Positions 14,328 to 39,374 of a DNA stretch of 64,000 nt are shown piece by piece. Below the pieces are notes generated by a model. It did no database searches, had not been told where the DNA came from, and saw only the letters and a program-made list of their open reading frames with translations. A program made the position numbers and the translations under genes. Location of the stretch: the NCBI RefSeq assembly GCF_002213415.1, contig NZ_NJGU01000004.1, positions 434,001 to 498,000 on the forward strand, given 5' to 3'. The stretch comes from Herbaspirillum robiniae. Its GTDB lineage: Bacteria > Pseudomonadota > Gammaproteobacteria > Burkholderiales > Burkholderiaceae_D. The first letter of the stretch is position 1, and the number at the start of each line of letters is the position of its first letter.

Positions 14328-14398
14328 GAGGAGGGACAGCCGGCCAGGCCGGTTGCCATCGACCAACGTTGATCCGAACAGACATCAAGAGAACCTTC

Positions 14399-23300: not shown

Positions 23301-26300
23301 CGCCCGATGACGGCGGCTGGGCACTCACGCCGGGCGTGCAGAAGTTCGGCGGCGACGTGGTGGTGCCGATTGCCGGGATCACCCTGCTGGACGGTACCGT
23401 CTATCCGACCGGCAAGACCCTGAACTACGCCATCACGGTGCGTAACGTCACCTTGCCGATGGGTACCGTGCTGCCGTCGGCGATCACGCTGGACCGCGAC
23501 CTGGCCTTGCCGGCTGGCAGCGTGCTCGCCGCCGATGTGCGCGCCGCCAACGGTAGCGTGCTGCTGGCAGCCGGCAGCGTGGTCGGCGCGGCCGGACTTA
23601 CGGTGCCGGCCGGAGCGCAACTGCTGGCCGGCGTCCGCCTGCCGGTGCCATTGACTAGCGCCACGCTGACCTGGCCCAAAGGCGCGCCCTTGCCTGTGGA
23701 CATGACGCAGAGCGGATCGCTGACCTTGCCAGTGGGCGCGCTGATCGCGGCGGGCACCAATGTGAAGCTCAACGCGGGCGTCGATTCGATCAACCTGAGG
23801 CCGGCCGATGCCAATGGCCGCCAGGCCAGGAACTGGGCGGTGGCGCAGATGCTGCCGGAAGGATCGCAATCCTGGAGCCTGGGCGTGGTGGCCGGCGCCG
23901 ACACCGGCGCGGCCGATACGCGCGCCCGCAATACCATCGGCCGCGGCGATCTGGTGCTGGCCGATACCCACTATGGCATCAAGACGATTCCCGGCGGGAC
24001 CTTGAGCGTGCTCAACGCCGACGGCGTAGCCCTTCTTACCGGAACCCATGGCTTGCCCATGGGGGTAAGCCGCCCATCCGATCTGATCGGCAAGACTATG
24101 GCCCAGATCATCGCGCTCTACGGCGTCACCGACTGGAGCGATTTCATCTTCGGACCGATCACGGCCGATTTCTGGGACCCGGCGCAGGGCAATATCCAGC
24201 TGGGCCTGACGCTGCGAGGGGCGGGAGAGATACTGAGCGCGGCAGGCAGCCTGCCCAATGGCATGACCGACGTCAGCCAGTTGGTTGGCAAGACCGAGTC
24301 CGAGCTGGTGGAGCTCTATACGCCACTGGGTGCAAGCAGTTGGGCCGATTTCGGGTTGGCGGACTTCTGGAAGCTGGCCAGCGGCAATGGCAGCCAGATC
24401 ATCCGGGTACCAAGCGTCGCCCCCAAGACGGTGGCCTATAGCGTGTTGCGCACCGGCACCGGCGATCTGAGCCTGGCGGCGGGCGGCAACTTCTCGATGC
24501 TCTCGCCCTATGGCGTGTATACCGCCGGCACCCAGCGCAGCCTGGGCAATGCGGCGCTCGATGCCAGCTTCAACCAGGCGCGCGGCCGTATCGACGGCAG
24601 CAAGGTGCTGGGCGGAGCCGGCGGCGACAGCGCCGCCGACTATGAAGCGTTGGTCAGTGGCGGCGCGCGACAGTACCGGGCGTGGTATCCGGACGGCGGC
24701 GGCAACCTGAACCTGGATGTCGGCGGCAATCTCACCGGCGATTCCTGGGCCGCCAGCAAGGAAGTGTTCTGGGCCAGCAGCAGCGTCGGCAACTGGCTGT
24801 GGCGGCAGGGCACCGGCGGCACGCCGGGCGTGGCCGAGGTGCCGACCGCATGGTGGATCAACTTCGGCACCTACATGTACAACCAGGCGGCCGTCGGCAT
24901 GCCCCAGTACTGGCCGACGGTGGTGGGCTTTACCGGCCTGGGCACGCTGGGCGGCGGCAATGCCAGCATCCGGGTCGGCGGCGATGCCAGCACGGTTTCG
25001 CTGCGTTCCACGACTGATATAGGCGATCCCACCACCGCGCGCAGCCAGGGCGTGGTGCTGGCGGTCGGCAGCAGCGGTCGCGTGCTGGCCGACGGCAGTC
25101 TGGCGCTGACCGGTGGCGGCGACCTCGACGTGCGCCTGGGCGGCGGCTGGAACAGCCATATCGAGGCGCGGGTGCCGCGTACCGGCCTGGCGCAGGCGCA
25201 GTCACATGAACTGTACGGTGCGCTGGTCGGCCTGCGCGGCGCGCTTTCACTGAGCGCCGGCCAGATCGGCACCATCGAACGGATCTACGGTCCGGGGCAG
25301 GATGCACGTGACCTGCGCACTTCCAATCCGTATATTCCCAGTCTCACCAGGAGCACCGGCGGCGTATTGGTGATGGCTGGCGACAGCGGCATGGATGTCG
25401 CCAGCCGGGGCGACCTGGTGCTGGGCGGGACCGGCAATGCCGGTCTGGTGAACACGCCCAATACCGTGGCCTTCAGCGCGACCAATGGCAACGGCGAGCG
25501 CGGAATGAGTTGGTTCAGCCTGTGGAGCGACCATACCGCGCTGCGCGCCTTCAGCGCCGGCGGCGACATGGCCTTCGACACCCGTCCCTCCGAGACCAAT
25601 GCCAAGATCGGTACGTACAACTGGGATTACACCAGCAACGGCGGTTGGTTCATGCTGCCGGGCGAGGTCAGCGCGGTGGCGGGCGTGGGCAGCATCTACT
25701 ATGGCCAGTCGCTGGCGTATCGCCACGCCGGCAACGCCACGCAATGGGAGACCGGGGGGCTGCTGCTGGCGCCGCAAGGCAAACGCAATGTCGAGCTTCT
25801 GGCCGGCAATGCACTGTACGGCGGGGGTTATCCGATCGCCGTGTCCGGCGCGGACGGCGCGGTCATGGCCACCATCTGGCATCCCGGCTTCTTCGGCACC
25901 GATAACACCAGTCTCCCGCTGGCAAGCAACGTCAGCGTGGACGCGCCCTATGCCGATGTCGGCGTCTATCCCTTGCTGGCTTTTGGCGTCGGCAATATCG
26001 GTGCCACCGCCGGCATCGCCGGTCACGCTGTTGCGCCGTCGCGCTTCTATGCCGGGCGGGGCGATATCGTCGGTCTTCAAAGTGGTGCGACGATGCGCTA
26101 TTTCGGTAGTCGTGGCGGCCAGACCGACTATATCGGCGCCGGTCCGGTGGCGATCCGCGCCGGGCGCGACATCGTCTATACCGGCACCCGCATGGATGAG
26201 GAACTGACCCGCTTCGGCTGGGTCAGCGGCGATGCCAGCGACAACGCCATGGCGGCGGGCAACTTGCTGCTCAATAGTCATGCCAACGACGTGTCGGTGC

Positions 26301-27682
26301 TCCAGGCCGGACGCGACATCCTGTACGCCAACGTCACCGTCGCCGGGCCGGGGACGCTTGAAGTGTCGGCTGGACGCAATATCGTCCAGTACGACCGTTC
26401 CTCCATCACCAGCATCGGTCCGGTGGTGCGTGGCGATTCCCGGCCGGGCGCCAGCATCGCGGTGCAGGCCGGCCTGGGCGATGCCGGCATCAGCAGCGGC
26501 TATTCTGGCTTGCTGGCGCGCTACCTGAACCCGGCCAACCTGGCGCAAGGCGGCACGCCGCTGGCCGACCAGCCAGGCAAGGTGGCCAAGACCTATGGTG
26601 CCGAGCTATCGGCGTGGCTGGGCGAGCGCTTCGGTTTCAGCGGCACGGCGGAGCAGGCCTTGGCCTACTTCAACGCCCTGGCGCCGGAACAGCAGCGTAT
26701 CTTCGCGCGCCAGATCTACTTTGCCGAACTGCGTGCGGGCGGGCGCGAGTACAACGACGCGAGCAGCCCACGTTATGGCAGCTACCTGCGCGGCCGCAAC
26801 GCCATCGCGGCGATGTTCCCGGCCACGGAGTATCAGGGCGACCTGCTGATGTACGGCGCGTCGGGCATCCACACCGACGTGGGCGGCGATATCCAGATCC
26901 TCACCCCGGGCGGCGCGCAGACCTTCGGCGTGGAGGGTATTGCTCCGCCTTCCACGGCGGGCTTGATCACGCGCGGCAGGGGCGACATCTCGCTGTATTC
27001 GCAAGGTAGCATCCTGCTGGGACAGAGCCGCATCATGACCACCTTCGGCGGCGGCATCATGGCATGGTCGGCGCAAGGCGACATCAACGCGGGGCGGGGC
27101 GCCAAGACCACCGTCGTCTATACGCCGCCGCGGCGCGTGTATGACAACGTGGGTGATGTCACGATGTCGCCGCAGGTGCCGTCCGCCGGCGCGGGCATCG
27201 CCACGCTGGCGCCGATCGCGGAGGTGCCCCCGGGCGACGTCGATCTGATCGCGCCCTTGGGCACCATCGATGCCGGCGAGGCGGGCATCCGGGTGTCGGG
27301 CAACATCAACGTTGCTGCGCTGCAGATCGTCAATGCGGCCAACATCCAGGTGCAGGGCAAGTCCACCGGCTTGCCGGTGATCGCGGCGGTGAACATCGGC
27401 GCGCTGACCAATGCCAGCGCGGCGGCCAGTTCGGCGGCGATGGCGGCGCAGGATGCGGTGTCGCGCGAACGGGCGGCGGCAAGGCAGAACCTGCCGTCGG
27501 TGTTCACGGTGCGGGTGCTGGGCTTCGGGGCCGACGGCACGGCGGCACCGGAGGGCCGTCCGGCAACGTCCGGGGCCGGCCATGACAGCGGTAGCGCGAT
27601 CCAGGTGCTGGGCCAGGGTAATCTGAACGCGGTGCAGCGCAATCGCCTGACCGATACCGAGCGGCGCAACCTGGGCCGTTGA
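14399..27682 (+). CDS. Giant filamentous haemagglutinin-like exoprotein (TpsA-type)
   Basis: 4,427 residues from ATG 14399; an in-frame TTG at 14369 is an unneeded extension. The long N-terminal region ends in a signal-like segment (AVAMLLAAGATGAAMPGAQAQQ). The TPS secretion domain follows (AILNWETFNVGKNTILNF, SQIQGQINAPGTVMIANRNG, with the NxNGI motif at residues 241-245). The bulk is Gly/Ala/Ser/Thr-rich beta-helix repeat. The last ~1,000 residues look like the DUF3739 haemagglutinin region (FAELRAGGREYNDASSPRYG). Cysteines are nearly absent; I saw only CGVTC at 2224-2228 in the mature part. Eight RGD tripeptides occur. There is no pre-toxin or C-terminal toxin domain, so adhesin or biofilm role is more likely than CDI. 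No TpsB transporter gene lies in the window. Confidence 0.92.
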   Translation: MPPLHEARYPSSSSSRQHAAHAFCLVSSAPTWQHRPVARAVAMLLAAGATGAAMPGAQAQQAFSPAWFASKGAMQNSAAATGYLPNGTRAALLTNPAQQQQQANAQLQRSINNLSTLARGIAAQQAAQEAARQAALANGSSVPDGLAEGGLKVDTNSLTRGWINANTPAQSAANGRTTVTVQQIADKAILNWETFNVGKNTILNFAQDANWAVLNRINDPLMRPSQIQGQINAPGTVMIANRNGIVFAGSSQIDVRNLVAAAARITDDQFRNRGLYVDASGTAPSFTDANGKLIVEAGARITTAQSTSVTQGGGYVLLLGSETSNAGRIATPGGQTVLAAGDSFTIRKGIGSDGNQGSSTAGNEVSTSRSNASGVVNNSGLIVANTGDITLTGHQVIQAGAVVSTSSTAKRGTIHLSTRASDVEGSVTLAPDSVTGIVPDGSEVTALDSQREALVRNGAGLYNQSSGVYDNLSTLADRKDLSRIEIVSGKTVQFQGGSTTLATGGEIVVTATRRTLVDAGATLDVSGAVGVKLAMNSNTVAVNVQGNEQRDAPVNRDSKTLNNLNVWVDRRDLVLVPAGTNGYAADRWYTAGGLLEVSGYLGTSARGGGEWMAQGGTVTVSGGDLVTRAGSSINLSGGTLDVASGMLRQSWIKGSDGRLYNVNTAPGDLLYAGVYRGFEVMHARWGDKTTEYYYNPLIAPQQRYEDGYTVGRDAGRLVVSTRNAALEGTLVSETYQGPRQTKAAQAGLEGYQQLQYAAARRAQLIVGQYLPVYDSKAGGLRYTFNPLFDSVTVGAGASVAGGIGLDEAVAGDRAGQLLLDGGLLNAAQLGAVRLAGKKSVTVSSSLRLADGGEAVLFAPLVDVAADIVAHGGTIRGGNVLRQIRDNGVTLDQGLDPAGGNGAGVILHAGARLDATGRMVDLRGEGDPGLQAYIDGGTVSLRSTDSVTLAAGSVIDVSSGATLQGDGTVRGGKGGSVQLGTGLAGTVVTANPAGTLTLDGTIRGYGVKGGGKLDIESASAVVIGGKAVPVEGVLEAGKSALVGLVLKEDYQVRAGDILPVDYKYLSDIAPPGYTLVGAEVATGRDSPWYDLPDDWVLPVPTEWGRNSVQSSTGQVWDADIGTRPGSVVIPKNTRIQLISIYGAYFAGFTIPARLFPNGMKLKEPRTFTTPAGQPATVDFTIAAGTALAAGAQLTRTVAVAKTTNLDVDLFASGFSSYSVRGYQGLMVAPGVALDVRMPVLQADAQAPAGTDGNALSVWQPELYQPQMLNRSIKQRQGASLTLAAGIADIGGSGDLTIGRDAALRVDPGQSITLAARGGLSVDGLLQAKSGSISVQGPQTTGDKSIEDGGNVGDSRPGSRAIELSAHAVLDASAASYVATDARGRPFGIVADGGSVAIGGILVESKARALAADSFVVVREGALVDVSGTAARFDIDGTGVRTIASNGGSIQLLSARGIYLDGSLRAGAGAAGSGAAGGTLTVALDAPNYLKNPAPNGTVMAPRELTLVQQKSAGASDAGGLQYGHGLLGVNQVRDGGFSSLVLHSNGLLSFNDNLNLSLDRELRVYAGALTLASGVNRRIDVALNAPYVLLSGSNDQGAASDNYLRPSYQGGLTSLDSQAVLNVSGMLIDIKDKVVLGTNTTMSGNTVERPGFGQLNLVSQGDIRFTYGTTTSQINPVSTLTSRGDILLRAAQVYPATGTFAEVSAGVIDRYNYRPDSKLVLERYDPGAPDPAMPYAMFGSLKLGATSIEQGGVLRAPLGTLNIGTNSQTSGGTGGSTTSITFKPGSLTSVSAAGLTLPYGGTSDGVNYLYRGNNVEFKGVGGLGVMYLDSRVVTVAAGARLDLSGGGEVRGAGFVSGRGGSTDARLAPLMQLTDKGFSLPGLATNPVYAIVPGYASAYAPADAASALDPRIGQQVTIGSHQIPGLAAGTYTLLPSNYALLPGAFRVEFNGALTGPAGGQALAMRNGSWTVAGALSTANTALAENMTRALIVTPGDVLRRYAQYNETGYSEFALRQAALAGTVRPMLPADARNLFIALESSPDSSLSLQGNVDFTPAPGGQGGMASIKMRGYNAGKIEILADGAARTPAFDGLSLYARDLNALNAGRLVVGGSLGSTYGRRGGVDASNYIDITGSMDSIVLRQGALLRVPDVFLITDNPAGSITIEAGAGINTIGLGRGPYDSLDGYVYRPGTMSVLALSNGVINTLAPQPDSSGRGSGAILLGVCGVTCNGTTQLYSEGSLLLATRRDFQLTDAVRYGTRNLMLAAGSLNAGSAADLAAAAARGALTPGLTIDQQVLSRLLRGDTAYGAPALERLILTAADSVNLFGNVSLSTIDPATGRSSLANLVLTTPAIYGVGAPGELAEIRTGKLTWAGQGTVAPAPITGGRGSGAGRLVLSADVIELGYDTSALPTGLDNFGRTILGFADVALNANERITASFKGSLSVYQSQTAGANGPQYQGGNLSLQAPLITGTGGSVNAITAGGALQLSAPASGRADPAAVRVDTGAELKLSGNTVSIDTTVALPSGKLTVSADGDIRLGDNAWLDLGGREIRLFDVSRYSWGGELSLQSSAGGIRQAGAAVIDLSARNNNAGQLNLIAMGGTVDMQGTLRGDASGRYDAGGTLVPYRAGSIDVRALALGGASLSEGFAGLNDRLNAGGVSGERSFQFKQGDLVIGNELKANRINVSLDGGQLVVNGVVDASGEKVGSIRLAAANGLTLAAGAVLDAHGSMLRVDSYGKIIDSPNRATVQLDAGNGTLTLQGGSRIDLRHGTALNGGDGNNRGTLDLFAARVGNTGSVTDANAATFGDIAIDARGAIDIQGARSIAVYGRQRYSDAAHGTDPAASGRPYQVIDQAYLDARHAQATAFIDNALANGNLLNNKLAGLNNAAYRQALHLRPAIEIVSATPQGDLVVQGDLDLSGLRYNSLNPGTPKTGVYGSGEVGMLTLRAGGDLSIYGSINDGFAPPPDTPDDGGWALTPGVQKFGGDVVVPIAGITLLDGTVYPTGKTLNYAITVRNVTLPMGTVLPSAITLDRDLALPAGSVLAADVRAANGSVLLAAGSVVGAAGLTVPAGAQLLAGVRLPVPLTSATLTWPKGAPLPVDMTQSGSLTLPVGALIAAGTNVKLNAGVDSINLRPADANGRQARNWAVAQMLPEGSQSWSLGVVAGADTGAADTRARNTIGRGDLVLADTHYGIKTIPGGTLSVLNADGVALLTGTHGLPMGVSRPSDLIGKTMAQIIALYGVTDWSDFIFGPITADFWDPAQGNIQLGLTLRGAGEILSAAGSLPNGMTDVSQLVGKTESELVELYTPLGASSWADFGLADFWKLASGNGSQIIRVPSVAPKTVAYSVLRTGTGDLSLAAGGNFSMLSPYGVYTAGTQRSLGNAALDASFNQARGRIDGSKVLGGAGGDSAADYEALVSGGARQYRAWYPDGGGNLNLDVGGNLTGDSWAASKEVFWASSSVGNWLWRQGTGGTPGVAEVPTAWWINFGTYMYNQAAVGMPQYWPTVVGFTGLGTLGGGNASIRVGGDASTVSLRSTTDIGDPTTARSQGVVLAVGSSGRVLADGSLALTGGGDLDVRLGGGWNSHIEARVPRTGLAQAQSHELYGALVGLRGALSLSAGQIGTIERIYGPGQDARDLRTSNPYIPSLTRSTGGVLVMAGDSGMDVASRGDLVLGGTGNAGLVNTPNTVAFSATNGNGERGMSWFSLWSDHTALRAFSAGGDMAFDTRPSETNAKIGTYNWDYTSNGGWFMLPGEVSAVAGVGSIYYGQSLAYRHAGNATQWETGGLLLAPQGKRNVELLAGNALYGGGYPIAVSGADGAVMATIWHPGFFGTDNTSLPLASNVSVDAPYADVGVYPLLAFGVGNIGATAGIAGHAVAPSRFYAGRGDIVGLQSGATMRYFGSRGGQTDYIGAGPVAIRAGRDIVYTGTRMDEELTRFGWVSGDASDNAMAAGNLLLNSHANDVSVLQAGRDILYANVTVAGPGTLEVSAGRNIVQYDRSSITSIGPVVRGDSRPGASIAVQAGLGDAGISSGYSGLLARYLNPANLAQGGTPLADQPGKVAKTYGAELSAWLGERFGFSGTAEQALAYFNALAPEQQRIFARQIYFAELRAGGREYNDASSPRYGSYLRGRNAIAAMFPATEYQGDLLMYGASGIHTDVGGDIQILTPGGAQTFGVEGIAPPSTAGLITRGRGDISLYSQGSILLGQSRIMTTFGGGIMAWSAQGDINAGRGAKTTVVYTPPRRVYDNVGDVTMSPQVPSAGAGIATLAPIAEVPPGDVDLIAPLGTIDAGEAGIRVSGNINVAALQIVNAANIQVQGKSTGLPVIAAVNIGALTNASAAASSAAMAAQDAVSRERAAARQNLPSVFTVRVLGFGADGTAAPEGRPATSGAGHDSGSAIQVLGQGNLNAVQRNRLTDTERRNLGR
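24041..24390 (+). repeat. Tandem ~50-residue repeat inside the giant adhesin
   Basis: Two consecutive units (about residues 3215-3265 and 3282-3331) share the pattern LP.G...-.-LIGKT..-I.-LY...-.W.DF...-DFW..A.GN. The first reads LPMGVSRPSDLIGKTMAQII; the second LPNGMTDVSQLVGKTESELV. They look helical and differ from the surrounding beta-helix, so they may form an inserted module. Confidence 0.65.
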
Positions 27683-27754
27683 CCGGCCGGGCACGTGGGG
27701 GCATGGACGGAAAGGCGCCGTCCACGCGCTCGCGGCGCGCAATACGCGGAAAAA

Positions 27755-27788
27755 CTGTCATTTCGGGGTCATCCATTACGGCTATGCT
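27755..27788 (+). promoter_or_regulatory. Pho-box-like element and -10 upstream of the HtrA-type protease
   Basis: CTGTCAT-TTCG-GGGTCAT (27755-27772) is followed after 10 bp by TATGCT (27783-27788). The first heptamer matches the E. coli PhoB half-site exactly. Same 7-4-7/10/TATGCT arrangement as at 11830-11863. Start of transcription near 27795 agrees with translation from ATG 27824. Confidence 0.5.
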
Positions 27789-27823
27789 ACTTGCCTGTCC
27801 CGGCCTGGGTCGAGTGGGTAACG

Positions 27824-29281
27824 ATGAAGATAATTACGAGATCGATGCTTGCTTCTGTTGCCTCTCTTGCGACCGGGCAAGCCGCCGTGCGCGGTATCTT
27901 GACGGCGGCCGGTTTGTCCGTCTGCCTGGCGGCTCCTGCCGCCCAGGCCCAGACGGCCGCGCCCGACGTATTGCAGGCGGTGCGCCCGCCAGTGGCGCGT
28001 CCAGAGCCTGACTTCACTCGCCTGGTCAAGGCCAGCGGCAATACCGTGGTCAACATCGGAGTGGCGCGTGAGGCATTGCAGCGCCGCCAGAACGGTGCCT
28101 TGCCGCAGGATCGCGTCGATGAAAGCACGCTGGGCTCAGGCTTCATCGTCGGTGCCGACGGTTATATCCTGACCAACGCCCACGTGGTCGCGCGCGGCAG
28201 CGCCATCAGCGTCAAGCTGAACGATCGCCGCGAATTCAAGGCGCGCCTGTTGGGCATCGATTCCATTTCCGACGTCGCTCTGCTGAAGATCGACGCCACC
28301 GGGTTGCCGGTGATCCGCATTGGCGATCCGGCTCGCATCGAGGTTGGCGAGTGGGTGCTGGCTATCGGCGCACCTTACGGTTTCAGCAATTCGGTGACCG
28401 CGGGCATCGTCAGCGCCAAGGGGCGCACCTTGCCGGGCGCGGACTACATGCCCTTCCTGCAGACCGATGTGCCGATCAATCCAGGCAATTCGGGCGGGCC
28501 GCTATTCAACATGCGCGGCGAGGTGATCGGCATCAATTCACGGATCTATAGCAACAGCGGTGGTTATCAGGGGCTGTCGTTTGCCATTCCCATTGACGTC
28601 GCCATGCGCATCAAGGAGCAGTTGCAGGCCAAGGGCTACGTGACGCGCGGGCGCATCGGCGTGGTGGTGCAGGAGGTGAGCCAGGCGCTGGCCCAATCCT
28701 TCGGTCTGCCCAAGCCGGCCGGCGCGCTGGTGAGCTATGTCGCGCCCTACGGCGCTGCTGCGCGGGGCGGGCTGCAGCCGGGCGACGTGATCTTGAAGGT
28801 GGATCGCCGCGACGTGGTGCAGTCGGCCGATGCGCTCAGCTATGTGGCCGACCGCACGCCCGGCGAGCGGGTGACGGTCCAGATCTGGCGCAGCCGCGCG
28901 CTGCAGACGCTGGACATGTCGGTCGATGCCTCCGAGACCGCGGCGCTGGCGGCACCGCAGCAGCAGGCGCAGCCCGAGATTCCACTGGGCATGACGGTGC
29001 GTTCGCTGCAGCCCCAGGAACGCACGCTGTTCAAGGTGGACGGTGGGCTGTTGGTAGAGCGCGTCAACCTCACGGCGTCGCGCACCGGTGTGAAGGTGGG
29101 CGATGTTGTCCTGGCGCTCAATGGGCAAAGCGTCTCCACCATCGAGGGCTTGCTGGATGTGATCCGTCAGACCGGCGGCAGTTCGGCATTGCTGGTGCAG
29201 CGCGGGACGACGCGGCTATTCGTTCCGCTGGAGCTGCCCAAGCCAGTGCACGAGGAAACCCAGACCGAGCTCGATCCGTGA
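27824..29281 (+). CDS. Periplasmic HtrA/DegQ-type serine protease with two PDZ domains
   Basis: 485 residues from ATG 27824; the frame is open upstream to 27695 but that stretch overlaps the predicted promoter. A long signal peptide ends near AAPAAQAQ. The trypsin-like domain carries a complete triad: His120 (LTNAHVV), Asp150 (SISDVALLKI) and Ser223 (NPGNSGGPLF). Two PDZ domains follow (GALVSYVAPYGAAARGGLQP around 270-360, and GLLVERVNLTASRTGVKVGD near the C-terminus). Probable periplasmic quality-control protease; its position suggests it clears or assists the giant exoprotein during secretion. Genus-level naming (DegP, DegQ, MucD) cannot be settled here. Confidence 0.9.
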   Translation: MKIITRSMLASVASLATGQAAVRGILTAAGLSVCLAAPAAQAQTAAPDVLQAVRPPVARPEPDFTRLVKASGNTVVNIGVAREALQRRQNGALPQDRVDESTLGSGFIVGADGYILTNAHVVARGSAISVKLNDRREFKARLLGIDSISDVALLKIDATGLPVIRIGDPARIEVGEWVLAIGAPYGFSNSVTAGIVSAKGRTLPGADYMPFLQTDVPINPGNSGGPLFNMRGEVIGINSRIYSNSGGYQGLSFAIPIDVAMRIKEQLQAKGYVTRGRIGVVVQEVSQALAQSFGLPKPAGALVSYVAPYGAAARGGLQPGDVILKVDRRDVVQSADALSYVADRTPGERVTVQIWRSRALQTLDMSVDASETAALAAPQQQAQPEIPLGMTVRSLQPQERTLFKVDGGLLVERVNLTASRTGVKVGDVVLALNGQSVSTIEGLLDVIRQTGGSSALLVQRGTTRLFVPLELPKPVHEETQTELDP

Positions 29282-30002: not shown

Positions 30003-30989
30003 TCATTGCAACAATCCGCTTCCGGGTGGCGCCAGGCCGCTGGCCAGCACCGCCGCTGCCGAGCGCGTTTCCACGCCCAGTTTCACGAAGATGTGCTCCA
30101 GGTGCTTGTTCACCGTGCGCGGGCTCATGCCGAGGATGTCGGCGATGTCGCGGTTGGTCTTGCCTTTGCCCAGCCACATCAGCACGTCGTTCTCGCGCGG
30201 GGTGAGGCGATAGTCGTCGAGCGAGGAAGGCGAGGTGTCGTCGGCGCCCGCCGGCGCTGCGGCAGCGTGCTGTTTTTCTTCCAGCAGCAGGGTGATGCCG
30301 TGGCCTTGCCCGGCGGCGGAGACGGCGATGCTGAGCTCGGCGTCGCCGCGTCTTGCCACCAGCGGCGCGATGCCGTCGACGCTGCCGCCGCCCTGGCGCT
30401 GGCGCGCCAGGCCTTCGTTGAGCCAGCTTTGTACGGCCAGCGGCAGCTTGTGGCCGGACGATGCGCCGGCCACAGCCGGGAAATATTTCTCCAGCCACAG
30501 CGATGCCTTGCTGGTCTGCCACAGCGGCAGGCCGTTGCCGCCCATCACGATGGCCGCATGGGAGGCATGTTCGAGCGCGCCGCGCGCCTGCGACATCATG
30601 CGCGCGGTGCGGATGTGCGCGCCGATGCGCGCCACCACTTCCTGCGGCCGGATCGGCTTGGTGACGTAGTCGATGCCGCCGACCTCGAAGCCGCGCACCA
30701 CATGCTCGGTCTCCGAGAGGCCGGTCATGAACACTACCGGCACATGGCTCACGCTCTTGATCAGCTTGATGCGGCGACAGGTCTCGAAACCGTCGATGCC
30801 GGGCATCATGGCGTCCAGCAGGATCAGGTCGGGCGTGACGCAGTCCAGGCGCTCCAGCGCGCTGACGCCGTCGGTGGCGACCAGTACGATGTGGCCGCTC
30901 TCGTCGAGCGTGTCCGACAGCATGGCCAGGTTGTCGGGCATGTCGTCGACGATGAGCACCACGTGCCTATCGAACGTCGTTGAGATCAT
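30003..30989 (-). CDS. LuxR/NarL-type response regulator with extended middle
   Basis: 328 residues. The N-terminal receiver domain has acidic pocket VLIVDDMPDN (Asp15/16), phospho-acceptor Asp59 in LILLDAMMPG and YVTKPIRP. A ~110-residue middle follows (GALEHASHAAIVMGGNGLPL, then SIAVSAAGQGHGITLLLEE) that resembles a PAS-like linker. The C-terminus is a LuxR helix-turn-helix (LTPRENDVLMWLGKGKTNRD, then IADILGMSPRTVNKHLEHIF). Its start overlaps the end of the sensor kinase by 23 bp, so the two are coupled. The likely target is the divergent urt/amidase operon, whose control region carries 7-2-7 palindromes of the NarL type (inference). Confidence 0.9.
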   Translation of the reverse strand: MISTTFDRHVVLIVDDMPDNLAMLSDTLDESGHIVLVATDGVSALERLDCVTPDLILLDAMMPGIDGFETCRRIKLIKSVSHVPVVFMTGLSETEHVVRGFEVGGIDYVTKPIRPQEVVARIGAHIRTARMMSQARGALEHASHAAIVMGGNGLPLWQTSKASLWLEKYFPAVAGASSGHKLPLAVQSWLNEGLARQRQGGGSVDGIAPLVARRGDAELSIAVSAAGQGHGITLLLEEKQHAAAAPAGADDTSPSSLDDYRLTPRENDVLMWLGKGKTNRDIADILGMSPRTVNKHLEHIFVKLGVETRSAAAVLASGLAPPGSGLLQ

Positions 30990-33900
30990 GGCGGATCATC
31001 TCCTTGATGCGGGTCACATATTCGTTGAGGCGGAATTGCCTGACCAGTTGGCGCAGCTCGGTGGTGAAAGGCAGGTAGGCAGGATTTTGCCGTTCCATGT
31101 CGTCGAGCTGGCGCAGGATTTCCTTGGCGTAGCCGATTGCGCCCAGCTCCAGCAGGGCGCGCAGCTTCTTTTGCGCGGGCACCAGCATCAGCGGCTGTTC
31201 GGCCGGCGCGGGGGCGGCAGGCGCACTGGCTGCGGCAGCGTTGACCCAGTCCAGTTTGAGCTGTTGCTTGATCTTCGCCAGCAGTTCGCTGTAGGAGACC
31301 GGCTTGACGACGAAGTCGTTGTAGAGCGGCGTTTCGCTGCGCTCCAGCAGGTTCTCGAAGGCGTCGGCCGAGACGAAGATCACCGGCAGCTGCGCCAGCC
31401 CGCGTGCGCGGATGGCGCGGGCCACCGACCAGCCGTCCATCAGCGGCATGGCGATGTCGAGCAGCACCAGGTCGGGAACGCCGCGCGCGAGCTCCTCCAT
31501 GCAAGCGATGCCGCTGTCGGCCTCGGTCACGGCGAAGCCCAGCGGCAACAGCATCTCCCGCAGCAGGCGCCGCTGCGAGGCCTGGTCGTCGACCACCAGC
31601 ACGCGTCGCGCCGGGCCGGTGTATCCGCACATCTGGTCTTCCAGCTTCAGGCGCGGGCGCGGCACGTTGACTTCCGGCAGGTAGAGCTTCAGATGGAAGC
31701 TGCTGCCGCTGCCGACCTGGCTCTGCACCGACAATTCGCCGCCCATGATGTGGGTGAGCATGCGGCTGATGGCCAGGCCCAGTCCGGTGCCGATGTCTTC
31801 GCGCAGGTTGGCCGCGCTGCTGCGTTCGAAGGGCAGGAAGATGCGTTCCAGGTCGTCGTCGGCGATGCCGATGCCGGTGTCGATGATGTCGAACCAGGCG
31901 ATCTCGCGCGCGTAGCGCACGCGCACCGTGACGCCACCGCGGTCGGTGAACTTGACGGCGTTGCCCAGCAGGTTGATCAGGATCTGGCGCAGGCGCTTCT
32001 GGTCGGCATGCACGATCTGCGGGATACGGCCGGTCTTTTCGAAGCGAAAGCTCAGGCCCTTTTGCTCGGCCTGTGGCGCGAACATGCCCTCGATCTGCTC
32101 CAGCAATCCCGACAGCGCCACTTCGTCGGACGCCAGGCGCATCTTGCCGGCCTCGATCTTGGCGATGTCGAGCAGACCGTCGATCAGGCTCAGCAGGTGC
32201 TCGCCGCTGCGGCGGATGATGGCGATGGCTTCCTTGCGTGCCGGCGGAATGGTGGCGTCAACGTGCAGGATCTGCGCGTAGCCGAGGATGCTGTTCAACG
32301 GCGTGCGCAGTTCGTGGCTCATGCCGGCCACGAAACGGCTCTTGGCGAGGTTGGCCGATTCCGCCGCCTCCTTGGCGCGCTGCAGTTCGGCGTCGGTCTG
32401 CTTGTGCGCTTCGATCTCCTGCAGCAGCAGATTGGTCTGGCGTTCCGACTCCTCCTGCGCCACGGCCCGGCTCTCATTGGTCAACACCAGCCACCACGAC
32501 GCCACGCCCAGCAGTACCAGCAACGTGCAGAACAGCTTGATGAAGATGCCACGAATGGAGTCCGGTCCGCCCGGCGCGGCGCCGGAGATATCGGCCATCT
32601 GCTGGAAGTACAGCATCCACAGCACGATCGCCAGGCCGCCGGCCAGCACGCCGAACACGATCAGGTAGTGCCCGATGCGGGTATTGAGCTTGAGCGAGAA
32701 GCGCGCCGGAAGCAGGCTGCGCAGGGTCTGGAACAGCTGATTGGGCAGGCGCGCGGCCGGCGTCTTGCAGCGGTCGTTGCAGCGCGCATCCAGCGAGCAG
32801 CACAGCGAGCAGATGGTGCCCTGGTAGGCCGGGCAATGCGCCATGTCGGGCGTTTCGAAATGGTTGCCGCAGATTACGCACTCCAGTTGCCCATGTACGT
32901 GGCTGTGGCCTGAGAGCGTGTCGCGGCGGGCGATGTAGTAGCGACTCTTGGTCGCGACGGCGATCAGCGGCGCGCACAGCAGCGCCGTACCCAGTGCGAT
33001 GAAGGGCGCCATTGCCGCCGCCGTCCTGCCCAGTGCGCCCGACATCGCCACGGCCGAGAGAATGGAGGCGATCGCCATCGAGCCCACGCCGACCGGGTTG
33101 ACGTCGTACAGGTGGGCGCGCTTGAACTCGATGTGGCGCGGGCTCAGCTTGAGTGGCTTGTTGATCACCAGGTCCGACACCACCGCGCCTATCCATGAGA
33201 TCGCCACCAGGCTGTACAGCGCCAGCACGTGCTCGAGCGCGTTGAACACGCCCAGCTCCATCAGCAGCACCGCGATCAGCACATTGAACACCAGCCATAC
33301 CACGCGCCCCGGATGGCTGTGCGTCACCCGCGCAAAGAAGTTGGACCAGGCCAGCGAGCCGGCATAGGCGTTGGTGACGTTGATCTTGATCTGCGACACC
33401 ACCACGAACAGCACCACCGCGCCCAGCGCCAGCGCCGGGTTGGAGAAGACGTACTGGTAGCCGATCAGGTACATCTGGGTCGGCTCCACCGCCTTCGCCA
33501 TCGGCACTTCATGCTGGATCGCGAGAAAGGCCAGCAGCGCGCCGCCCAGCATCTTGGCGCCGCCCAGCAGGATCCAGCCGGGGCCGGCCAGCAGCAATGC
33601 GGTCCACCAGCGGCCGCGATTGGCGGCGGTCTTCTCCGGCAGGAAGCGCAGGAAGTCGACCTGTTCCCCGATCTGCGCAATCAGCGAGAAAGCCACCGTT
33701 GCGGCCGCGCCGAACAGCAGCAGGTTGAATGAGCTGCCTTCCTCGGCGCGGCCGGCGAAGGTGATCAGGTTGGCCAGGGCGTCCGGCTCCTTGTGCAGCA
33801 CGCAGATATAAGGCAGCGCCAGCAGCACGATCCACAGCGACTGCGTCCACATCTGCAGGCGGTTGATCAGCGTGATGCCGTAGGCCACCATCGGGATGAT

Positions 33901-34383
33901 GATCAGCGAGCACAGCACATAGCCGTAGACCAGCGGCAGGCCGAAGTAGATCTCGATGGCCTGGGCCATGATCGCCGCTTCCAGCGCGAAGAAGATGAAG
34001 GTGAAGGTGGCGTAGATCAGCGACGTGATGGTCGAGCCGATGTAGCCGAAGCCGGCGCCGCGCGTGAGCAGGTCCATGTCCACGCCGTAGCGGGCGGCGT
34101 AATAGCTGATCGGCAGGCCGGTCAGGAAGAACAGCACCACCACGCAGGCGATCGCCCAGAAGGTGTTGGTGAAACCATAACTCAGGGTGATGGCGCCGCT
34201 GATGGCCTCCAGCGCGAGGAAGGAGGTCGCGCCCAGCGCCGTGTTGGCCAGGCGGAACTCCGACCAGCGCCGGAACGAGCGCGGGGTATAGCGCAGCGCG
34301 TAGTCTTCCAGCGTCTCGTTGGCGACCCAGGTGTTGTAGTCGCGCCGGACTTTGACGATGCGTTGTGTGGCGGGGTTGGTCAC
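30967..34383 (-). CDS. NCS1 permease-like sensor fused to hybrid histidine kinase
   Basis: 1,138 residues from GTG 34383 (an upstream ATG at 34512 adds an Arg-rich stretch that does not look native). Residues ~1-480 are a full NCS1 cytosine/purine/hydantoin-type transporter (RRWSEFRLANTALGATSFLA, TRGAGFGYIGSTITSLIY, then many membrane helices). A Cys-rich stretch follows near 502-540 (LECVICGNHF, HCPAYQGTICSLCCSLDARC). Two more helices and a coiled coil lead to the HisKA domain (phospho-His690 in FVAGMSHELRTPLNS), HATPase (NLLGNAVKFTDRG, DTGIGIADDD, GTGLGLAIS) and a receiver domain (Asp976 in LVLLDIAMPLMDG). The transporter half probably senses or transports the inducer of the divergent amide operon, by analogy with CbrA. 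Confidence 0.92.
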   Translation of the reverse strand: MTNPATQRIVKVRRDYNTWVANETLEDYALRYTPRSFRRWSEFRLANTALGATSFLALEAISGAITLSYGFTNTFWAIACVVVLFFLTGLPISYYAARYGVDMDLLTRGAGFGYIGSTITSLIYATFTFIFFALEAAIMAQAIEIYFGLPLVYGYVLCSLIIIPMVAYGITLINRLQMWTQSLWIVLLALPYICVLHKEPDALANLITFAGRAEEGSSFNLLLFGAAATVAFSLIAQIGEQVDFLRFLPEKTAANRGRWWTALLLAGPGWILLGGAKMLGGALLAFLAIQHEVPMAKAVEPTQMYLIGYQYVFSNPALALGAVVLFVVVSQIKINVTNAYAGSLAWSNFFARVTHSHPGRVVWLVFNVLIAVLLMELGVFNALEHVLALYSLVAISWIGAVVSDLVINKPLKLSPRHIEFKRAHLYDVNPVGVGSMAIASILSAVAMSGALGRTAAAMAPFIALGTALLCAPLIAVATKSRYYIARRDTLSGHSHVHGQLECVICGNHFETPDMAHCPAYQGTICSLCCSLDARCNDRCKTPAARLPNQLFQTLRSLLPARFSLKLNTRIGHYLIVFGVLAGGLAIVLWMLYFQQMADISGAAPGGPDSIRGIFIKLFCTLLVLLGVASWWLVLTNESRAVAQEESERQTNLLLQEIEAHKQTDAELQRAKEAAESANLAKSRFVAGMSHELRTPLNSILGYAQILHVDATIPPARKEAIAIIRRSGEHLLSLIDGLLDIAKIEAGKMRLASDEVALSGLLEQIEGMFAPQAEQKGLSFRFEKTGRIPQIVHADQKRLRQILINLLGNAVKFTDRGGVTVRVRYAREIAWFDIIDTGIGIADDDLERIFLPFERSSAANLREDIGTGLGLAISRMLTHIMGGELSVQSQVGSGSSFHLKLYLPEVNVPRPRLKLEDQMCGYTGPARRVLVVDDQASQRRLLREMLLPLGFAVTEADSGIACMEELARGVPDLVLLDIAMPLMDGWSVARAIRARGLAQLPVIFVSADAFENLLERSETPLYNDFVVKPVSYSELLAKIKQQLKLDWVNAAAASAPAAPAPAEQPLMLVPAQKKLRALLELGAIGYAKEILRQLDDMERQNPAYLPFTTELRQLVRQFRLNEYVTRIKEMIRHDLNDVR

Positions 34384-34536: not shown

Positions 34537-34560
34537 GGCATACGTCAAATGACGTATGCC
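34537..34560. promoter_or_regulatory. Perfect 24-bp palindrome, NarL-like 7-2-7 operator candidate
   Basis: Arms of 11 bp (34537-34547 and 34550-34560) around AA; the core is TACGTCA-AA-TGACGTA. Inverted heptamers with a 2-bp gap are the binding arrangement of NarL/LuxR-type regulators. It lies between the kinase start (34383) and urtA (34936). A near-copy follows at 34715-34730. Confidence 0.6.
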
Positions 34561-34697: not shown

Positions 34698-34718
34698 CGT
34701 AACGGCCGGGCCGTTACG
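34698..34718. promoter_or_regulatory. Perfect palindrome overlapping the second operator candidate
   Basis: CGTAACGGCC-G-GGCCGTTACG, 10-bp arms around a central G. Its right end overlaps the start of the TACGTC motif at 34715. It may be a hairpin or a site for a separate regulator; nothing follows that would make it a terminator. Confidence 0.45.
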
Positions 34719-34730
34719 TCAAACAACGTA
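34715..34730. promoter_or_regulatory. Second 7-2-7 operator candidate
   Basis: TACGTCAAACAACGTA matches TACGTCAAATGACGTA (34541-34556) at 14 of 16 positions. It ends directly before a possible -35 at 34731, the position expected for an activator of urtA transcription. Confidence 0.5.
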
Positions 34731-34935: not shown

Positions 34936-36192
34936 ATGTCGCACCGTTCCTCTTCCCGACCGCCTTCGTCCCAACGCCGCAAGATGCTGGCGGGCCTGGC
35001 CGCCGGTGCGGTTGCCGCCGCGCTGCCGGGCCTGGCCTCGGCGCAGCAGTTCCCGACCGCCAAGGTCAACACCACCAAGCTGGCCATCACCGACACGGAA
35101 GTCACCGTCGGCCAGTTGCATTCGGCCACCGGCACCATGGCCATCAGCGAAACCGGCTCGATCCAGGCCGAGCGCCTGGCGATCGACCAGATCAATTCGA
35201 TGGGCGGCATCCTCGGCCGCAAGATCAAGATCATCCAGGAAGACGGCGCCAGCGACTGGCCGACCTTCGCCGAAAAGGCCAAGAAGCTGCTGGAGAACGA
35301 CCGCGTCGCGGCCGTCTTCGGCTGCTGGACCTCGGCCTCGCGCAAGGCGGTGCTGCCGGTGTTCGAGAAGGACAACGGCCTGCTGTACTACCCGACCTTC
35401 TATGAAGGCCTGGAGCAGTCCAAGAACGTGTTCTATACCGGGCAGGAGGCGACGCAGCAGGTGCTGGCCGGGCTGAACTGGGTGGCCAAGGAAAAGAAGG
35501 CCAAGACCTTCTTCCTGGTCGGCTCCGACTACATCTGGCCGCGCACTTCCAACAAGATCGCGCGCAAGCACATCGAGAACGTGTTGAAGGGCTCGGTGGT
35601 GGGTGAGGAGTACTACCCGCTGGGCAACACCCAGTTCGGTTCGCTGATCAACAAGATCAAGCTGAAGAAGCCCGACGTCATCTTCGCCGACGTGGTCGGC
35701 GGCAGCAACGTGGCCTTCTACAAGCAGTTGAAGGCCGCCGGCGTCACCGCCAAGACCCAGAACCTGCTCACCATCTCGGTGACCGAGGATGAAATGCTGG
35801 GCATCGGCGGTGAGAACGTCGAGGGCTTCTTCGCCTCGATGAAATATTTCCAGAGCCTGGACAACGCCAACAACAAGAAATTCGTGGCTGAATTCAAGGC
35901 CAAGTTCGGCGCCAATTCGGTCATCGGCGACGTCACCCAGGCCGCCTACCTCGGCCCCTGGCTGTGGAAGGCAGCGGTCGAGAAGGCCGGCAGCTTCGAC
36001 GTCGACAAGGTGGTGGCGGCTTCGCCCGGCATCGAGCTGAAGACCGCGCCGGAAGGCTACGTCAAGGTCCACGAGAACCACCACCTGTGGAGCAAGACCC
36101 GCATCGGCGAGGCGCAGAAGGATGGCCAGTTCAAGGTCATCTACGAGTCCGACCTGATCGAGCCGAATCCTTTCCCCAAGGGCTATCAATAA
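34936..36192 (+). CDS. urtA: Urea/short-chain amide ABC transporter, substrate-binding protein
   Basis: 418 residues. ATG 34936 has a strong Shine-Dalgarno (AAAGGAG, 34923-34929); the frame is open far upstream only as a shadow. The N-terminus is a Tat-like signal (SQRRKMLAGLAAGAVAAALP, cleavage after ASAQQ). The mature part is a type I periplasmic binding protein of the UrtA/FmdD family: VTVGQLHSATGTMAISETGS, FGCWTSASRKAVLPVFEKDN, LYYPTFYEGLEQS, GSDYIWPRTSN. It delivers urea or small amides to UrtBCDE. Linkage to two amidases rather than urease makes short amides a plausible substrate. Confidence 0.93.
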   Translation: MSHRSSSRPPSSQRRKMLAGLAAGAVAAALPGLASAQQFPTAKVNTTKLAITDTEVTVGQLHSATGTMAISETGSIQAERLAIDQINSMGGILGRKIKIIQEDGASDWPTFAEKAKKLLENDRVAAVFGCWTSASRKAVLPVFEKDNGLLYYPTFYEGLEQSKNVFYTGQEATQQVLAGLNWVAKEKKAKTFFLVGSDYIWPRTSNKIARKHIENVLKGSVVGEEYYPLGNTQFGSLINKIKLKKPDVIFADVVGGSNVAFYKQLKAAGVTAKTQNLLTISVTEDEMLGIGGENVEGFFASMKYFQSLDNANNKKFVAEFKAKFGANSVIGDVTQAAYLGPWLWKAAVEKAGSFDVDKVVAASPGIELKTAPEGYVKVHENHHLWSKTRIGEAQKDGQFKVIYESDLIEPNPFPKGYQ

Positions 36193-36440: not shown

Positions 36441-37358
36441 ATGGTTTCTCTATCCGAATTCGGCGCCATCTTCGCCATGCAGGGCTTCAACGGCCTCTCG
36501 GTGTTCTGCGTCCTGCTGCTGATGGCGCTGGGCCTGGCCATCATCTTCGGCCAGATGGGCGTGATCAACATGGCGCATGGCGAGTTCCTCACCATCGGCG
36601 CCTACATCACCTACCTGCTGTCGCACCTGACCACGACCTATGCGCCGGCGCTGCAGCCGTTCTACTTCTTCGCGGCGGTAGTGCTGTCCTTCGCGGTGGC
36701 CTATGGTGTGGGCTATCTCACCGAGCTGCTGCTGATCAGCCGCCTCTACAAGCGCCCGCTGGACACGCTGCTGGCGACCTGGGGCCTGTCGCTGGCGATG
36801 CAGCAGACCTTCCGTTCCATCTTCGGCGCCAAGGAAGTCAGCGCCACCTTGCCGGACTGGCTGCTGGGCTCGTTCAAGCCCACCGATGCCATCGACATCC
36901 CGATCAACGGCCTGTTCATGATGGGCCTGACGGTGCTGCTGACCGGCGCTATCTTCGTCCTGCTGTTTCGCTCGCGCTGGGGGCTGCAGGTGCGCGCCAC
37001 CATGCAGAACCGGGTCATGAGCGGGGCGGTGGGCATCAATACCCGCAAGGTCGACCGCACCACCTTCGCGCTCGGCTGCGGCGTGGCGGGCGTGGCCGGG
37101 GCGGCATTCACCACGATCGGTTCGACCGGTCCCACCAGCGGCTCGCTGTACATCGTCGACACCTTCCTGGTGGTGGTGTTCGGCGGCGCGCAGAGCCTGA
37201 TCGGCACCATCGCCTCGGCCTTCTCGATCGCCCAGACGCAATCCACGGCCGAGTTCTTCCTGACCGGCTCGATGGCCAAGGTGCTCACGCTGTCGGCGGT
37301 GATCCTGATCCTGATGCTGCGTCCGCAGGGGCTGTTCTCCAGCAAGGTGCGCAAGTGA
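36441..37358 (+). CDS. urtB: Urea/amide ABC transporter permease
   Basis: 305-residue LivH-type branched-chain permease with about eight hydrophobic helices. Motifs include MALGLAIIFGQMGVINMAHG near the N-terminus, LLATWGLSLAMQQTFRSIFG, and the EAA-like loop region AVGINTRKVDRTTFALGCGV. Length and the FGQMG(V/L)INMAHGE signature fit UrtB. It would form the membrane channel with UrtC. Confidence 0.94.
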   Translation: MVSLSEFGAIFAMQGFNGLSVFCVLLLMALGLAIIFGQMGVINMAHGEFLTIGAYITYLLSHLTTTYAPALQPFYFFAAVVLSFAVAYGVGYLTELLLISRLYKRPLDTLLATWGLSLAMQQTFRSIFGAKEVSATLPDWLLGSFKPTDAIDIPINGLFMMGLTVLLTGAIFVLLFRSRWGLQVRATMQNRVMSGAVGINTRKVDRTTFALGCGVAGVAGAAFTTIGSTGPTSGSLYIVDTFLVVVFGGAQSLIGTIASAFSIAQTQSTAEFFLTGSMAKVLTLSAVILILMLRPQGLFSSKVRK

Positions 37359-37407: not shown

Positions 37408-38610
37408 ATGAATGCAGCGTATGAAAAATTATTGGGCGGCAGGTCCGGGTTGATCGGACTGGCGGTGATGGCGGCCCTGTTGCTGGTAGTGTTCCCGCTG
37501 GCGCTGGACATGTTCCGCCTCAACCTGGTGGGCAAGTATCTGTCCTACGCCTTCGTCGCTGTCGGCCTGGTGCTGTGCTGGGGCTACGGCGGCATCCTGA
37601 GCCTGGGGCAGGGCGTGTTCTTCGGCGTCGGCGGCTATTGCATGGCGATGTTCCTGAAGCTGGAGGCGTCCGACCCGGTCAGCACCAAGATCCAGTCCAC
37701 GCCAGGCATTCCCGACTTCATGGACTGGAACCAGCTGACCGAGTTGCCGGCCATGTGGCAGCCGTTCCACAGCTTCGGCTTCACCGTGCTGGCGGTGCTG
37801 GCGGTGCCTACGCTGCTGGCCTTCCTGATCGGCCTGGCGATGTTCAAGCGGCGCGTGGGGGATGTCTATTTTTCCATCGTCACGCAGGCCATCGCGGCGA
37901 TCCTGTCGATCCTGATCATCGGCCAGCAGGGCCTGACCGGCGGCGTCAACGGCATCACCGACCTCAAGACTTTGATGGGCTGGGACATCCGCACCGACAG
38001 CGCCAAGCTGATCCTGTACTTCGTCAATGCCGGCCTGCTGTTCGGCTGCATCCTGCTGGGCCGCTACATCCTGTCCTCCAAGCTCGGCCGCCTGCTGGTG
38101 GCAATGCGCGACAAGGAGGAGCGGGTGCGCTTCTCCGGCTACGACGTGGCCAGCTTCAAGGTGTTCGTGTTCTGCGTCGCAGCCATGTTCTCGGCCATCG
38201 GCGGCGCCATGTTCACGCTGCAGGTGGGCTTCATGTCGCCGTCCTTCGTGGGCATCGTGCCCTCCATCGAGATGGTGATCTACGCCGCGGTGGGCGGGCG
38301 CATGTCGCTGCTGGGGGCGGTCTACGGCACGCTGCTGGTGAACTTCGGCAAGACCTACTTCTCCGAGACCTTCCCTGAACTGTGGCTGTTCCTGATGGGC
38401 GGCCTGTTCATTGCGGTCGTCATGTATTTCCCCAACGGGCTGGCCGGGTTGTACCAGGCCCAGGGCAAGCGGCTGATGGCGCGCTTGCGCAGCAAGCCGG
38501 CGGCCGAGCCGGAGCCGGTCAGGCCCAAGGCGGCTTCGTCCAGGCCGGCCGTAACCGAAACCACTCGCGACGGCATCGAGCCCGGCGCCACCCTGGAGGC
38601 CAGCAAATGA
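37408..38610 (+). CDS. urtC: Urea/amide ABC transporter permease
   Basis: 400-residue LivM-type permease partner of UrtB. Features: LNLVGKYLSYAFVAVGLVLC, WGYGGILSLGQGVFFGVGGY, TQAIAAILSILIIGQQGLTG, and the conserved FKVFVFCVAAMFSAIGGAMF loop. UrtC proteins carry an insertion after the LGQG segment as seen here (SDPVSTKIQSTPGIPDFMDW). The ~50-residue C-terminal tail is Pro/Ala/Glu-rich and cytoplasmic. Stop overlaps urtD as ATGA. Confidence 0.94.
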   Translation: MNAAYEKLLGGRSGLIGLAVMAALLLVVFPLALDMFRLNLVGKYLSYAFVAVGLVLCWGYGGILSLGQGVFFGVGGYCMAMFLKLEASDPVSTKIQSTPGIPDFMDWNQLTELPAMWQPFHSFGFTVLAVLAVPTLLAFLIGLAMFKRRVGDVYFSIVTQAIAAILSILIIGQQGLTGGVNGITDLKTLMGWDIRTDSAKLILYFVNAGLLFGCILLGRYILSSKLGRLLVAMRDKEERVRFSGYDVASFKVFVFCVAAMFSAIGGAMFTLQVGFMSPSFVGIVPSIEMVIYAAVGGRMSLLGAVYGTLLVNFGKTYFSETFPELWLFLMGGLFIAVVMYFPNGLAGLYQAQGKRLMARLRSKPAAEPEPVRPKAASSRPAVTETTRDGIEPGATLEASK

Positions 38611-39374
38611 GCGACGCACCCATCGGATTCGAGTCGGACGCCCACCCGGTGCTGGCGATCGAAGACCTCACCGTTTCCTTCGACGGCTTCAAGGCGGTCG
38701 ACAAGCTGAACCTGTACGTGCAGCGCAATGAGGTGCGCGTGGTGATCGGGCCCAACGGCGCCGGCAAGACCACGGTGCTGGACCTGATCTGCGGCAAGAC
38801 GCGCGCCACTTCGGGCAGCATCCGCTTCAATGACCACGAATTGACCAGGATGAGCGAGCACGCCATCGTGCGCGCCGGCGTCGGGCGCAAGTTCCAGACG
38901 CCGTCGATCTACGAGAACCTCTCGGTGTTCGAGAACCTGGAGATGTCGTTTCCGCGCGGCCGCAAGGTGTTCGGCGCGCTGACCTTCAAACGCTCGCCGG
39001 ACGTGGTGGAGCGGGTGGAGTCGGTAGCCGCCGAGATCTTCCTGGACGAGTTCCTGCATACCCAGGCCGACCTGCTCTCGCACGGTCAGAAGCAGTGGCT
39101 GGAGATCGGCATGCTGCTGATGCAGGATCCGGAGCTGCTGATGCTCGACGAGCCGGTGGCCGGCATGAGCGTCTCCGAACGCGAGAAGACCGCGCAACTG
39201 CTGGGACGCATCAGCCAGGGGCGCTCGGTGGTGGTGATCGAGCACGACATGGATTTCGTCAAGAGCATCGCGCACAAGGTCACGGTGTTGCACCAGGGAA
39301 AGATCCTGGCCGAGGGCAGCATGGACAAGGTGCAGTCCGACCCCAAGGTCATCGACGTCTATCTCGGCCACTAA
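38607..39374 (+). CDS. urtD: Urea/amide ABC transporter ATP-binding protein
   Basis: 255-residue LivG-type ATPase. Walker A is IGPNGAGKTTVLDLICGKT, Q-loop VGRKFQTPSIYENLSVFENL, signature LSHGQKQWLEIGMLLMQDPE, Walker B LLMLDEPVAGMS and the H-loop VVVIEHDMDFV. ATG 38607 overlaps the urtC stop. The serine-glycine signature is LSHGQ, normal for UrtD. A 129-bp gap with a long inverted repeat separates it from urtE. Confidence 0.95.
   Translation: MSDAPIGFESDAHPVLAIEDLTVSFDGFKAVDKLNLYVQRNEVRVVIGPNGAGKTTVLDLICGKTRATSGSIRFNDHELTRMSEHAIVRAGVGRKFQTPSIYENLSVFENLEMSFPRGRKVFGALTFKRSPDVVERVESVAAEIFLDEFLHTQADLLSHGQKQWLEIGMLLMQDPELLMLDEPVAGMSVSEREKTAQLLGRISQGRSVVVIEHDMDFVKSIAHKVTVLHQGKILAEGSMDKVQSDPKVIDVYLGH

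Follow-up and report, generated by a model that had tools for sequence, protein, structure and literature searches.

A divergent NCS1-type permease domain as the putative urea or amide sensor of a hybrid histidine kinase in Herbaspirillum robiniae

In the CrbS/CrbR system, a whole transporter is joined to a hybrid kinase that works with a LuxR-type regulator, and an imperfect inverted repeat lies upstream of the target genes, according to the available part of the report (PMC5715377). CbrA is likewise a transporter-kinase transceptor, in which an SLC5 transporter is combined with PAS and STAC domains, the latter a four-helix bundle, and the ligand is histidine (PMC13022988, in excerpt); NCS1, nucleobases, zinc and urea are not mentioned in that text. 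A nitrogen signal is read by a sensor histidine kinase of Kuenenia, whose transporter domain is of the Amt type and whose ligand is ammonium (PMC5764959, in excerpt). The 5TMR sensor kinases use the ECF S-component fold rather than NCS1, a membrane fold common to transporters and receptors, with outputs that include GGDEF and EAL; that text does not mention NCS1 or urea (PMC11109136). The fmdCABDEF genes of Methylophilus methylotrophus, which are induced by formamide and urea, comprise a formamidase, a putative regulator, a porin and binding-protein-dependent amide/urea uptake, and unlike at the locus described here, no kinase is mentioned for them in the part of the report available (PMC10781810).

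Here, we describe a kinase of Herbaspirillum robiniae with a different carrier and a different linker. It is encoded in a 64,000-nucleotide stretch of contig NZ_NJGU01000004.1, which was analyzed whole and is called the window below. The kinase, its domains and its neighboring regulator are:

30967 to 34383, minus strand: hybrid histidine kinase with an NCS1-like permease sensor (1,138 aa; whole ORF including stop)
32929 to 34383, minus strand: NCS1-like permease domain (about residues 1-485)
32758 to 32892, minus strand: eight-cysteine, possibly zinc-binding linker domain (about residues 498-542)
32464 to 32688, minus strand: predicted transmembrane hairpin (about residues 566-640), leading into a long helix
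32146 to 32346, minus strand: HisKA domain (residues 680-746; Pfam E 3.2e-19)
31678 to 32004, minus strand: HATPase_c domain (residues 794-902; Pfam E 4.5e-25)
31267 to 31602, minus strand: Response_reg receiver domain of the kinase (residues 928-1039; Pfam E 1.6e-21)
30003 to 30989, minus strand: response regulator with a receiver and a LuxR/GerE DNA-binding domain (Pfam), overlapping the 3' end of the kinase gene

The original prediction, that a permease, a Cys-rich linker, HisKA/HATPase and a receiver are joined in one 1,138-residue protein, holds as anatomy. The reading frame is unbroken on the minus strand from a GTG start at 34383, and no frame break divides it into two proteins. A TTG at 34512 is a possible longer start, but the block conserved in the family begins near residue 13. 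Pfam identifies HisKA, HATPase_c and a receiver in the single chain, as in a hybrid sensor histidine kinase, and the predicted phospho-acceptor is His690 at the H-box position, whereas the permease had to be identified by fold and profile-profile comparison. An artefactual fusion is ruled out, as the frame is intact in the window and in many genera, and a chance fusion is excluded because the fusion is conserved across those genera. Beyond this first reading, the permease is too divergent for the NCS1 model of Pfam, a transmembrane hairpin is predicted, the LuxR-type regulator gene overlaps the kinase gene, and the divergent operon is headed by a urea-type ABC transporter.

The SLC5 transporter domain of the CbrA and CrbS class is not found in the window kinase. 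CrbS has an SLC5 carrier, a STAC linker, acetate genes and another inverted repeat, whereas the window kinase has an NCS1 carrier, an eight-cysteine domain with a predicted transmembrane hairpin, and urea/amide genes. Compared with STAC as described, the window linker has eight cysteines and a predicted strand-rich core and is followed by the hairpin. Unlike CodB and Mhp1, the protein has a fused kinase, Lys333 and Glu135. The architecture adds a carrier from an unrelated family and another linker to the known CbrA/CrbS-like transporter-kinase fusions, of which we found few described. NCS1 fusions had been expected to be little described, and we found no report of one in the open-access full-text literature searched, a scope outside which most subscription papers lie.

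For the sensor half (residues 1-610), no Pfam model and no NCBIfam transporter model matched at E≤5, PF02133 and TIGR00800 included, and the single PF02133 match in the genome is a different gene. Because Pfam misses the permease half, NCS1 identity needed other tests, and deciding membership by Pfam alone was rejected. The fold is closest to CodB and Mhp1, which have the LeuT-type fold, as judged by the top five Foldseek rows and the top four VIA-align entries. Profile-profile comparison with NCS1 by hhalign gave a probability of 98 and an E-value of 2.6e-13 over 356 columns, and a stand-alone relative found by our A1 profile (locus L214; 146 bits) itself matches PF02133. Identity to CodB and Mhp1 is about 16-18%, and PDB sequence searches with the sensor half returned nothing relevant. 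Since the fold is that of NCS1 and neither PF02133 nor TIGR00800 matches, we file the domain as a divergent NCS1-fold branch and not as a member by those models. The profile and structure-model comparisons support the sensor domain being an NCS1-type permease of a divergent branch. As neither Pfam nor the transporter models of NCBIfam recognize the domain, proteins of this kind would probably be annotated as hybrid kinases only.

The family is widespread. Among 274 class genomes, 17 match the sensor half (in G120, through a distant stand-alone permease only), and among 398 phylum genomes, 53 do (in G496, through a 94-aa fragment only); the phylum sample was taken as Pseudomonadota, judging from named relatives. 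When a named collection was scanned by pattern, at least 575 relatives came up, and the best 80 of these include five cyanobacterial loci and one from Polyangium. These 80 were picked by patterns including QxKINVTN and were not used for Lys333 conservation or prevalence. Loci overlap in species across the collections and are not independent.

As the original prediction had stated, an amide operon lies divergent from the kinase. By Pfam and NCBIfam models, it consists of:

34936 to 36192, plus strand: urtA, urea-type ABC substrate-binding protein (TIGR03407 above cut-off)
36441 to 37358, plus strand: urtB, permease (TIGR03409 above cut-off)
37408 to 38610, plus strand: urtC, permease (TIGR03408 above cut-off)
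38607 to 39374, plus strand: urtD, ATPase (TIGR03411 above cut-off)
39504 to 40193, plus strand: urtE, ATPase (TIGR03410 above cut-off)
40233 to 41255, plus strand: amiE-type aliphatic amidase (NF009802, 704.8 bits, cut-off 427)
41323 to 42501, plus strand: fmdA, formamidase/acetamidase (NF045496, 556.3 bits, cut-off 500; PF03069)
42585 to 42881, plus strand: FmdB-family zinc ribbon protein (TIGR02605, 37.6 bits, cut-off 31.3)

No hydantoin or allantoin genes were found in this operon. Elsewhere in the window, a 4,437-aa ORF (14369-27682) resembles by eye a large filamentous-haemagglutinin-type secreted protein, and the ORF at 27695-29281 resembles a DegP/HtrA-type serine protease with PDZ domains.

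We propose, with a probability of about 0.73, that the kinase is a transporter-derived receptor that senses urea and/or short-chain amides and, via the adjacent regulator, controls the divergent operon. Domain order, NCS1 fold, conservation, neighbors and a palindrome, each taken from sequence or prediction, are the basis on which we infer the ligand, the phosphoryl route and the direction of regulation. The NCS1-fold domain would bind the carboxamide group of the ligand in a central pocket, with Glu135 and Asn338 as candidate residues. The change of state would pass through the presumably cytoplasmic, probably zinc-binding eight-cysteine domain, the transmembrane hairpin and the long helix to HisKA/HATPase and His690. 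By analogy with CrbS/CrbR, the phosphoryl group would go to the adjacent LuxR-type regulator, and the internal receiver may act as a brake or a side branch. The regulator would then bind TACGYN6RCGTA and activate the urtABCDE-amiE-fmdA-fmdB operon, and probably its own genes too.

The pocket residues fit a carboxamide. Glu135 is invariant in all 74 aligned rows; it aligns with Mhp1 Gln121, a position at which seven ordinary NCS1 rows carry either Gln or Asn. Lys333 is present in 73 of the 74 rows; the remaining row, L214, has Arg at 333 and Glu at 135. Lys333 aligns with Mhp1 Ser312 by hhalign or with Thr313 when the N-x-Y motif is matched by eye, a register difference of one residue (Mhp1 numbering was counted from the alignment/structure sequence), and a basic residue at either column is found in none of the seven ordinary rows. 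In Mhp1, the residues that match Glu135 and Lys333 bind substrate and sodium. Conservation of pocket residues such as Glu135, Asn335, Asn338 and several polar ones around 237-246 equals that of the linker cysteines. These data suggest a sodium-independent pocket suited to a carboxamide, and hence to urea or short amides.

Strong conservation of the pocket would also be expected of a true transceptor, in which the NCS1 domain moves urea or amides across the membrane and flux or a cycle intermediate, not simple binding, is the signal to the kinase. CbrA, with its similar architecture, is reported in the accessible part of one study to have both transport and kinase activities (PMC7096432). At locus L106 (9767-11443, genome G263), a stand-alone gene encodes the permease and eight-cysteine domains (559 aa from the first listed start, in a 617-aa open frame). 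Behind it lie fmdA and amiE, at the place that urtABCDE holds in other loci, which suggests that this relative can carry the substrate; a full fusion is transcribed divergently from it, and the palindrome lies in the intervening gap. However, UrtABCDE is already encoded beside the kinase at many loci, and Lys/Arg333 at the Mhp1 sodium-site positions makes sodium coupling doubtful, leaving proton coupling as a possibility. We regard transport by the kinase as a tentative, less likely alternative to the receptor that responds to binding.

The hint that the operon gives about the ligand is strengthened by neighborhoods across the family and by a conserved palindrome. From the phylum survey we took 55 fusion loci, leaving aside G107, the fragment in G496 and the genome of the window itself, and scored neighbors within about 10 kb by tblastn with window operon and urease queries. 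Genes for urt, amide or urease functions lie beside 53 of the 55, the exceptions (L179, L213) being at contig ends; at many urease-type loci, the urt genes are only about 38-56% identical to those of the window. A homologue of the window regulator, whose LuxR domain was confirmed for the window copy only, adjoins the kinase in 53 of the 55 loci and is absent at L202 and L210. In the window's own genome, urtA occurs twice (at least 44% identity) and urease once, arranged in two clusters, so a random locus would lie near one in about 1% of cases, an estimate from this single genome. Of the 16 class genomes with a fusion, 10 have such neighbors, the window's included.

By our first criteria, the best 80 of the at least 575 named loci comprise 38 with high-identity urtA, 21 with urease and 21 with neither, several of the last having a lower-identity urtA nearby. 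The kinase is divergent from urtA in 37 of the 38; L045 was missed only because its open frame extended upstream past urtA. On a quick tree of the 80 sensors, amide and urea surroundings (64 labeled rows, with loci that have only low-identity urt genes labeled urea) need four changes, compared with a shuffled mean of 16.5; the root is unsure because the outgroup branch is very long. Surroundings track clades, yet have switched more than once. Neighbors do not discriminate between urea and amides, or between the ligand and one of its breakdown products, ammonium for example; urea and amides are equally likely as ligands.

Two 16-bp copies of the palindrome lie in the 552-bp kinase-urtA gap of the window:

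34541 to 34556, no strand assigned: predicted operator copy 1, TACGTCAAATGACGTA, embedded in a longer perfect inverted repeat
34715 to 34730, no strand assigned: predicted operator copy 2, TACGTCAAACAACGTA

The palindrome TACGTN6ACGTA between kinase and urtA is new in this analysis. It occurs in 46 of 76 kinase-urtA gaps, the window included, compared with a mean of 0.005 and a maximum of 1 in 200 dinucleotide shuffles, and among spacers of 0-15 only 6 (46) and 12 (1) occur. The degenerate form TACGYN6RCGTA is found in 64 of the 76 gaps and is missing from 12; in 52 of the 64, it lies 60-119 bp before the projected urtA start. Across 151 loci, with the window not counted, there are 121 such sites in 92 loci. 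Of the 121, 99 fall in the 400 bp ahead of a projected kinase or urtA start, regions that make up 2.95% of this sequence; with four control patterns, there were 3-9 sites per pattern, none of them in these regions. The other 22 sites, assigned post hoc and without a control, lie before fmdA (15), amiE (1), urtC (1) and a porin-like gene (2) or are unexplained (3), which places 118 of 121 before kinase, urt, amidase or porin-like genes. Neither of the two porin-like proteins, at L047 and L072, matches Pfam; that of L047, the one scanned further, reaches a porin model below its cut-off.

At loci where kinase and urease cluster are divergent and urtA is not nearby, the palindrome was found within 1,200 bp upstream of the kinase in 0 of 22 cases (L050, L066 and L175 are among the urease-divergent loci that lack it). 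The operator argument therefore fails for the urease genes, and our confidence is slightly lower. Several urease-type loci carry the palindrome before a separate urtA (L081, L091, L100, L180, L182). The window's own genome contains three TACGTN6ACGTA sites, two of them in the window, compared with two for the backward pattern; the third, on contig C28, does not fit the inner consensus and was treated as chance. Its degenerate sites number five, three outside the window locus, compared with 37 for the backward pattern. On contig C27 (12522-21757), the urease gene lies near the second urtA-like gene (44% identity), and neither palindrome form occurs at this cluster. No promoter passed a sigma-70 scan, including beside operator 2; the by-eye candidate TTGTTG-17-TATTCT after operator 2 has 8 of 12 matches, below the scan threshold, and was not used. 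Co-occurrence, together with the habit of the regulator family stated in the available part of PMC5715377, suggests that the adjacent LuxR-type regulator binds the palindrome.

The tie to urea and amide genes is not universal. No query genes were found in the stretch read for six of the 16 class genomes with a fusion (G032, G128, G240, G137, G197 and G052, the last on a 5.7-kb contig), and the cyanobacterial loci L042, L054, L068 and L075 and the myxobacterial Polyangium locus L082 have no urea/amide query neighbors. Such loci would fit a sensor that reads another NCS1-type ligand (cytosine, uracil, hydantoin or allantoin) or the general nitrogen state, with the amide/urea genes as one output. 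As far as we know, NCS1 carriers move ligands of this kind, and the fold-search entries include CodB, titled a cytosine transporter, and Mhp1, shown with hydantoin. We nevertheless consider this reading unlikely, given the urt, amide or urease neighbors, the classes queried, at 53 of 55 phylum loci, the concentration of the palindrome at urea/amide genes, and Glu135 in place of the Gln/Asn of ordinary NCS1 rows.

The linker of the proposed urea or amide receptor has eight cysteines (C502, C505, C517, C525, C528, C529, C535 and C539), which are kept together with Asp513 in 73 of 74 aligned rows; the exception is L214, a stand-alone permease that has no linker domain. Its structure model shows four short strands and one helix. 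Foldseek gave no significant match for the linker (best row a RING1 domain, E 0.87), and the hmmsearch rows with RING fingers were weak (E 2.5-2.7). Without a significant fold match, we make no RING-fold claim. The domain may bind zinc and would lie on the cytoplasmic side. Hydropathy peaks at 569-594 and 608-636 coincide with helices in the structure model and probably form a transmembrane hairpin ahead of the long helix and the kinase. That the eight-cysteine domain is the real sensor, of zinc or redox, and the permease fold a membrane scaffold only, is quite improbable: its cysteines are nearly invariant, but the pocket residues are equally conserved and the neighbors found are nitrogen genes, the queries being urea, amide and urease genes.

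The permease module is joined to several outputs, namely HisKA-receiver, plain kinases, PAS kinases and GGDEF-EAL. Among 98 reading frames from L023-L118, 92 are longer than 850 aa and have the usual H-box; the other six are L114, L115, L106 and three cut by contig ends. L115 fuses the module to a PAS-kinase-receiver with a different H-box. At L114 (7152-10820, minus strand), the permease and eight-cysteine module is fused to PAS-GGDEF-EAL with no kinase, so the module may feed cyclic-di-GMP signaling. The stand-alone L106 groups with the fused L114 and L115 on the quick tree, so its kinase may have been lost. L202 and L210 encode fusions of 894 and 899 aa that have neither a receiver nor an adjacent regulator, with fmdA nearby. 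L108 and L059 each have two full fusion copies no more than about 10 kb apart, only one per pair adjoining urtA (for L059, the second copy was the one analyzed). Behind the distant stand-alone NCS1 permease of L214 (8994-12165) lie a carbon-nitrogen hydrolase and a weak urtA-like match. A broader and speculative view is that this NCS1 branch, missed by Pfam and NCBIfam, could be a portable carboxamide receptor, with Lys at the sodium site, a binding-driven switch, a relay of cysteine domain and hairpin, several outputs, and perhaps one reversion to a stand-alone carrier.

Urea and small amides are important nitrogen sources. AmiC/AmiR of Pseudomonas is a cytoplasmic amide sensor, and to our knowledge few bacterial membrane receptors for urea or small amides have been described. 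In this family, a candidate receptor comes together with its regulator and a candidate operator, and comparison of SLC5-STAC with NCS1-eight-cysteine sensors may show how a carrier turns into a receptor.
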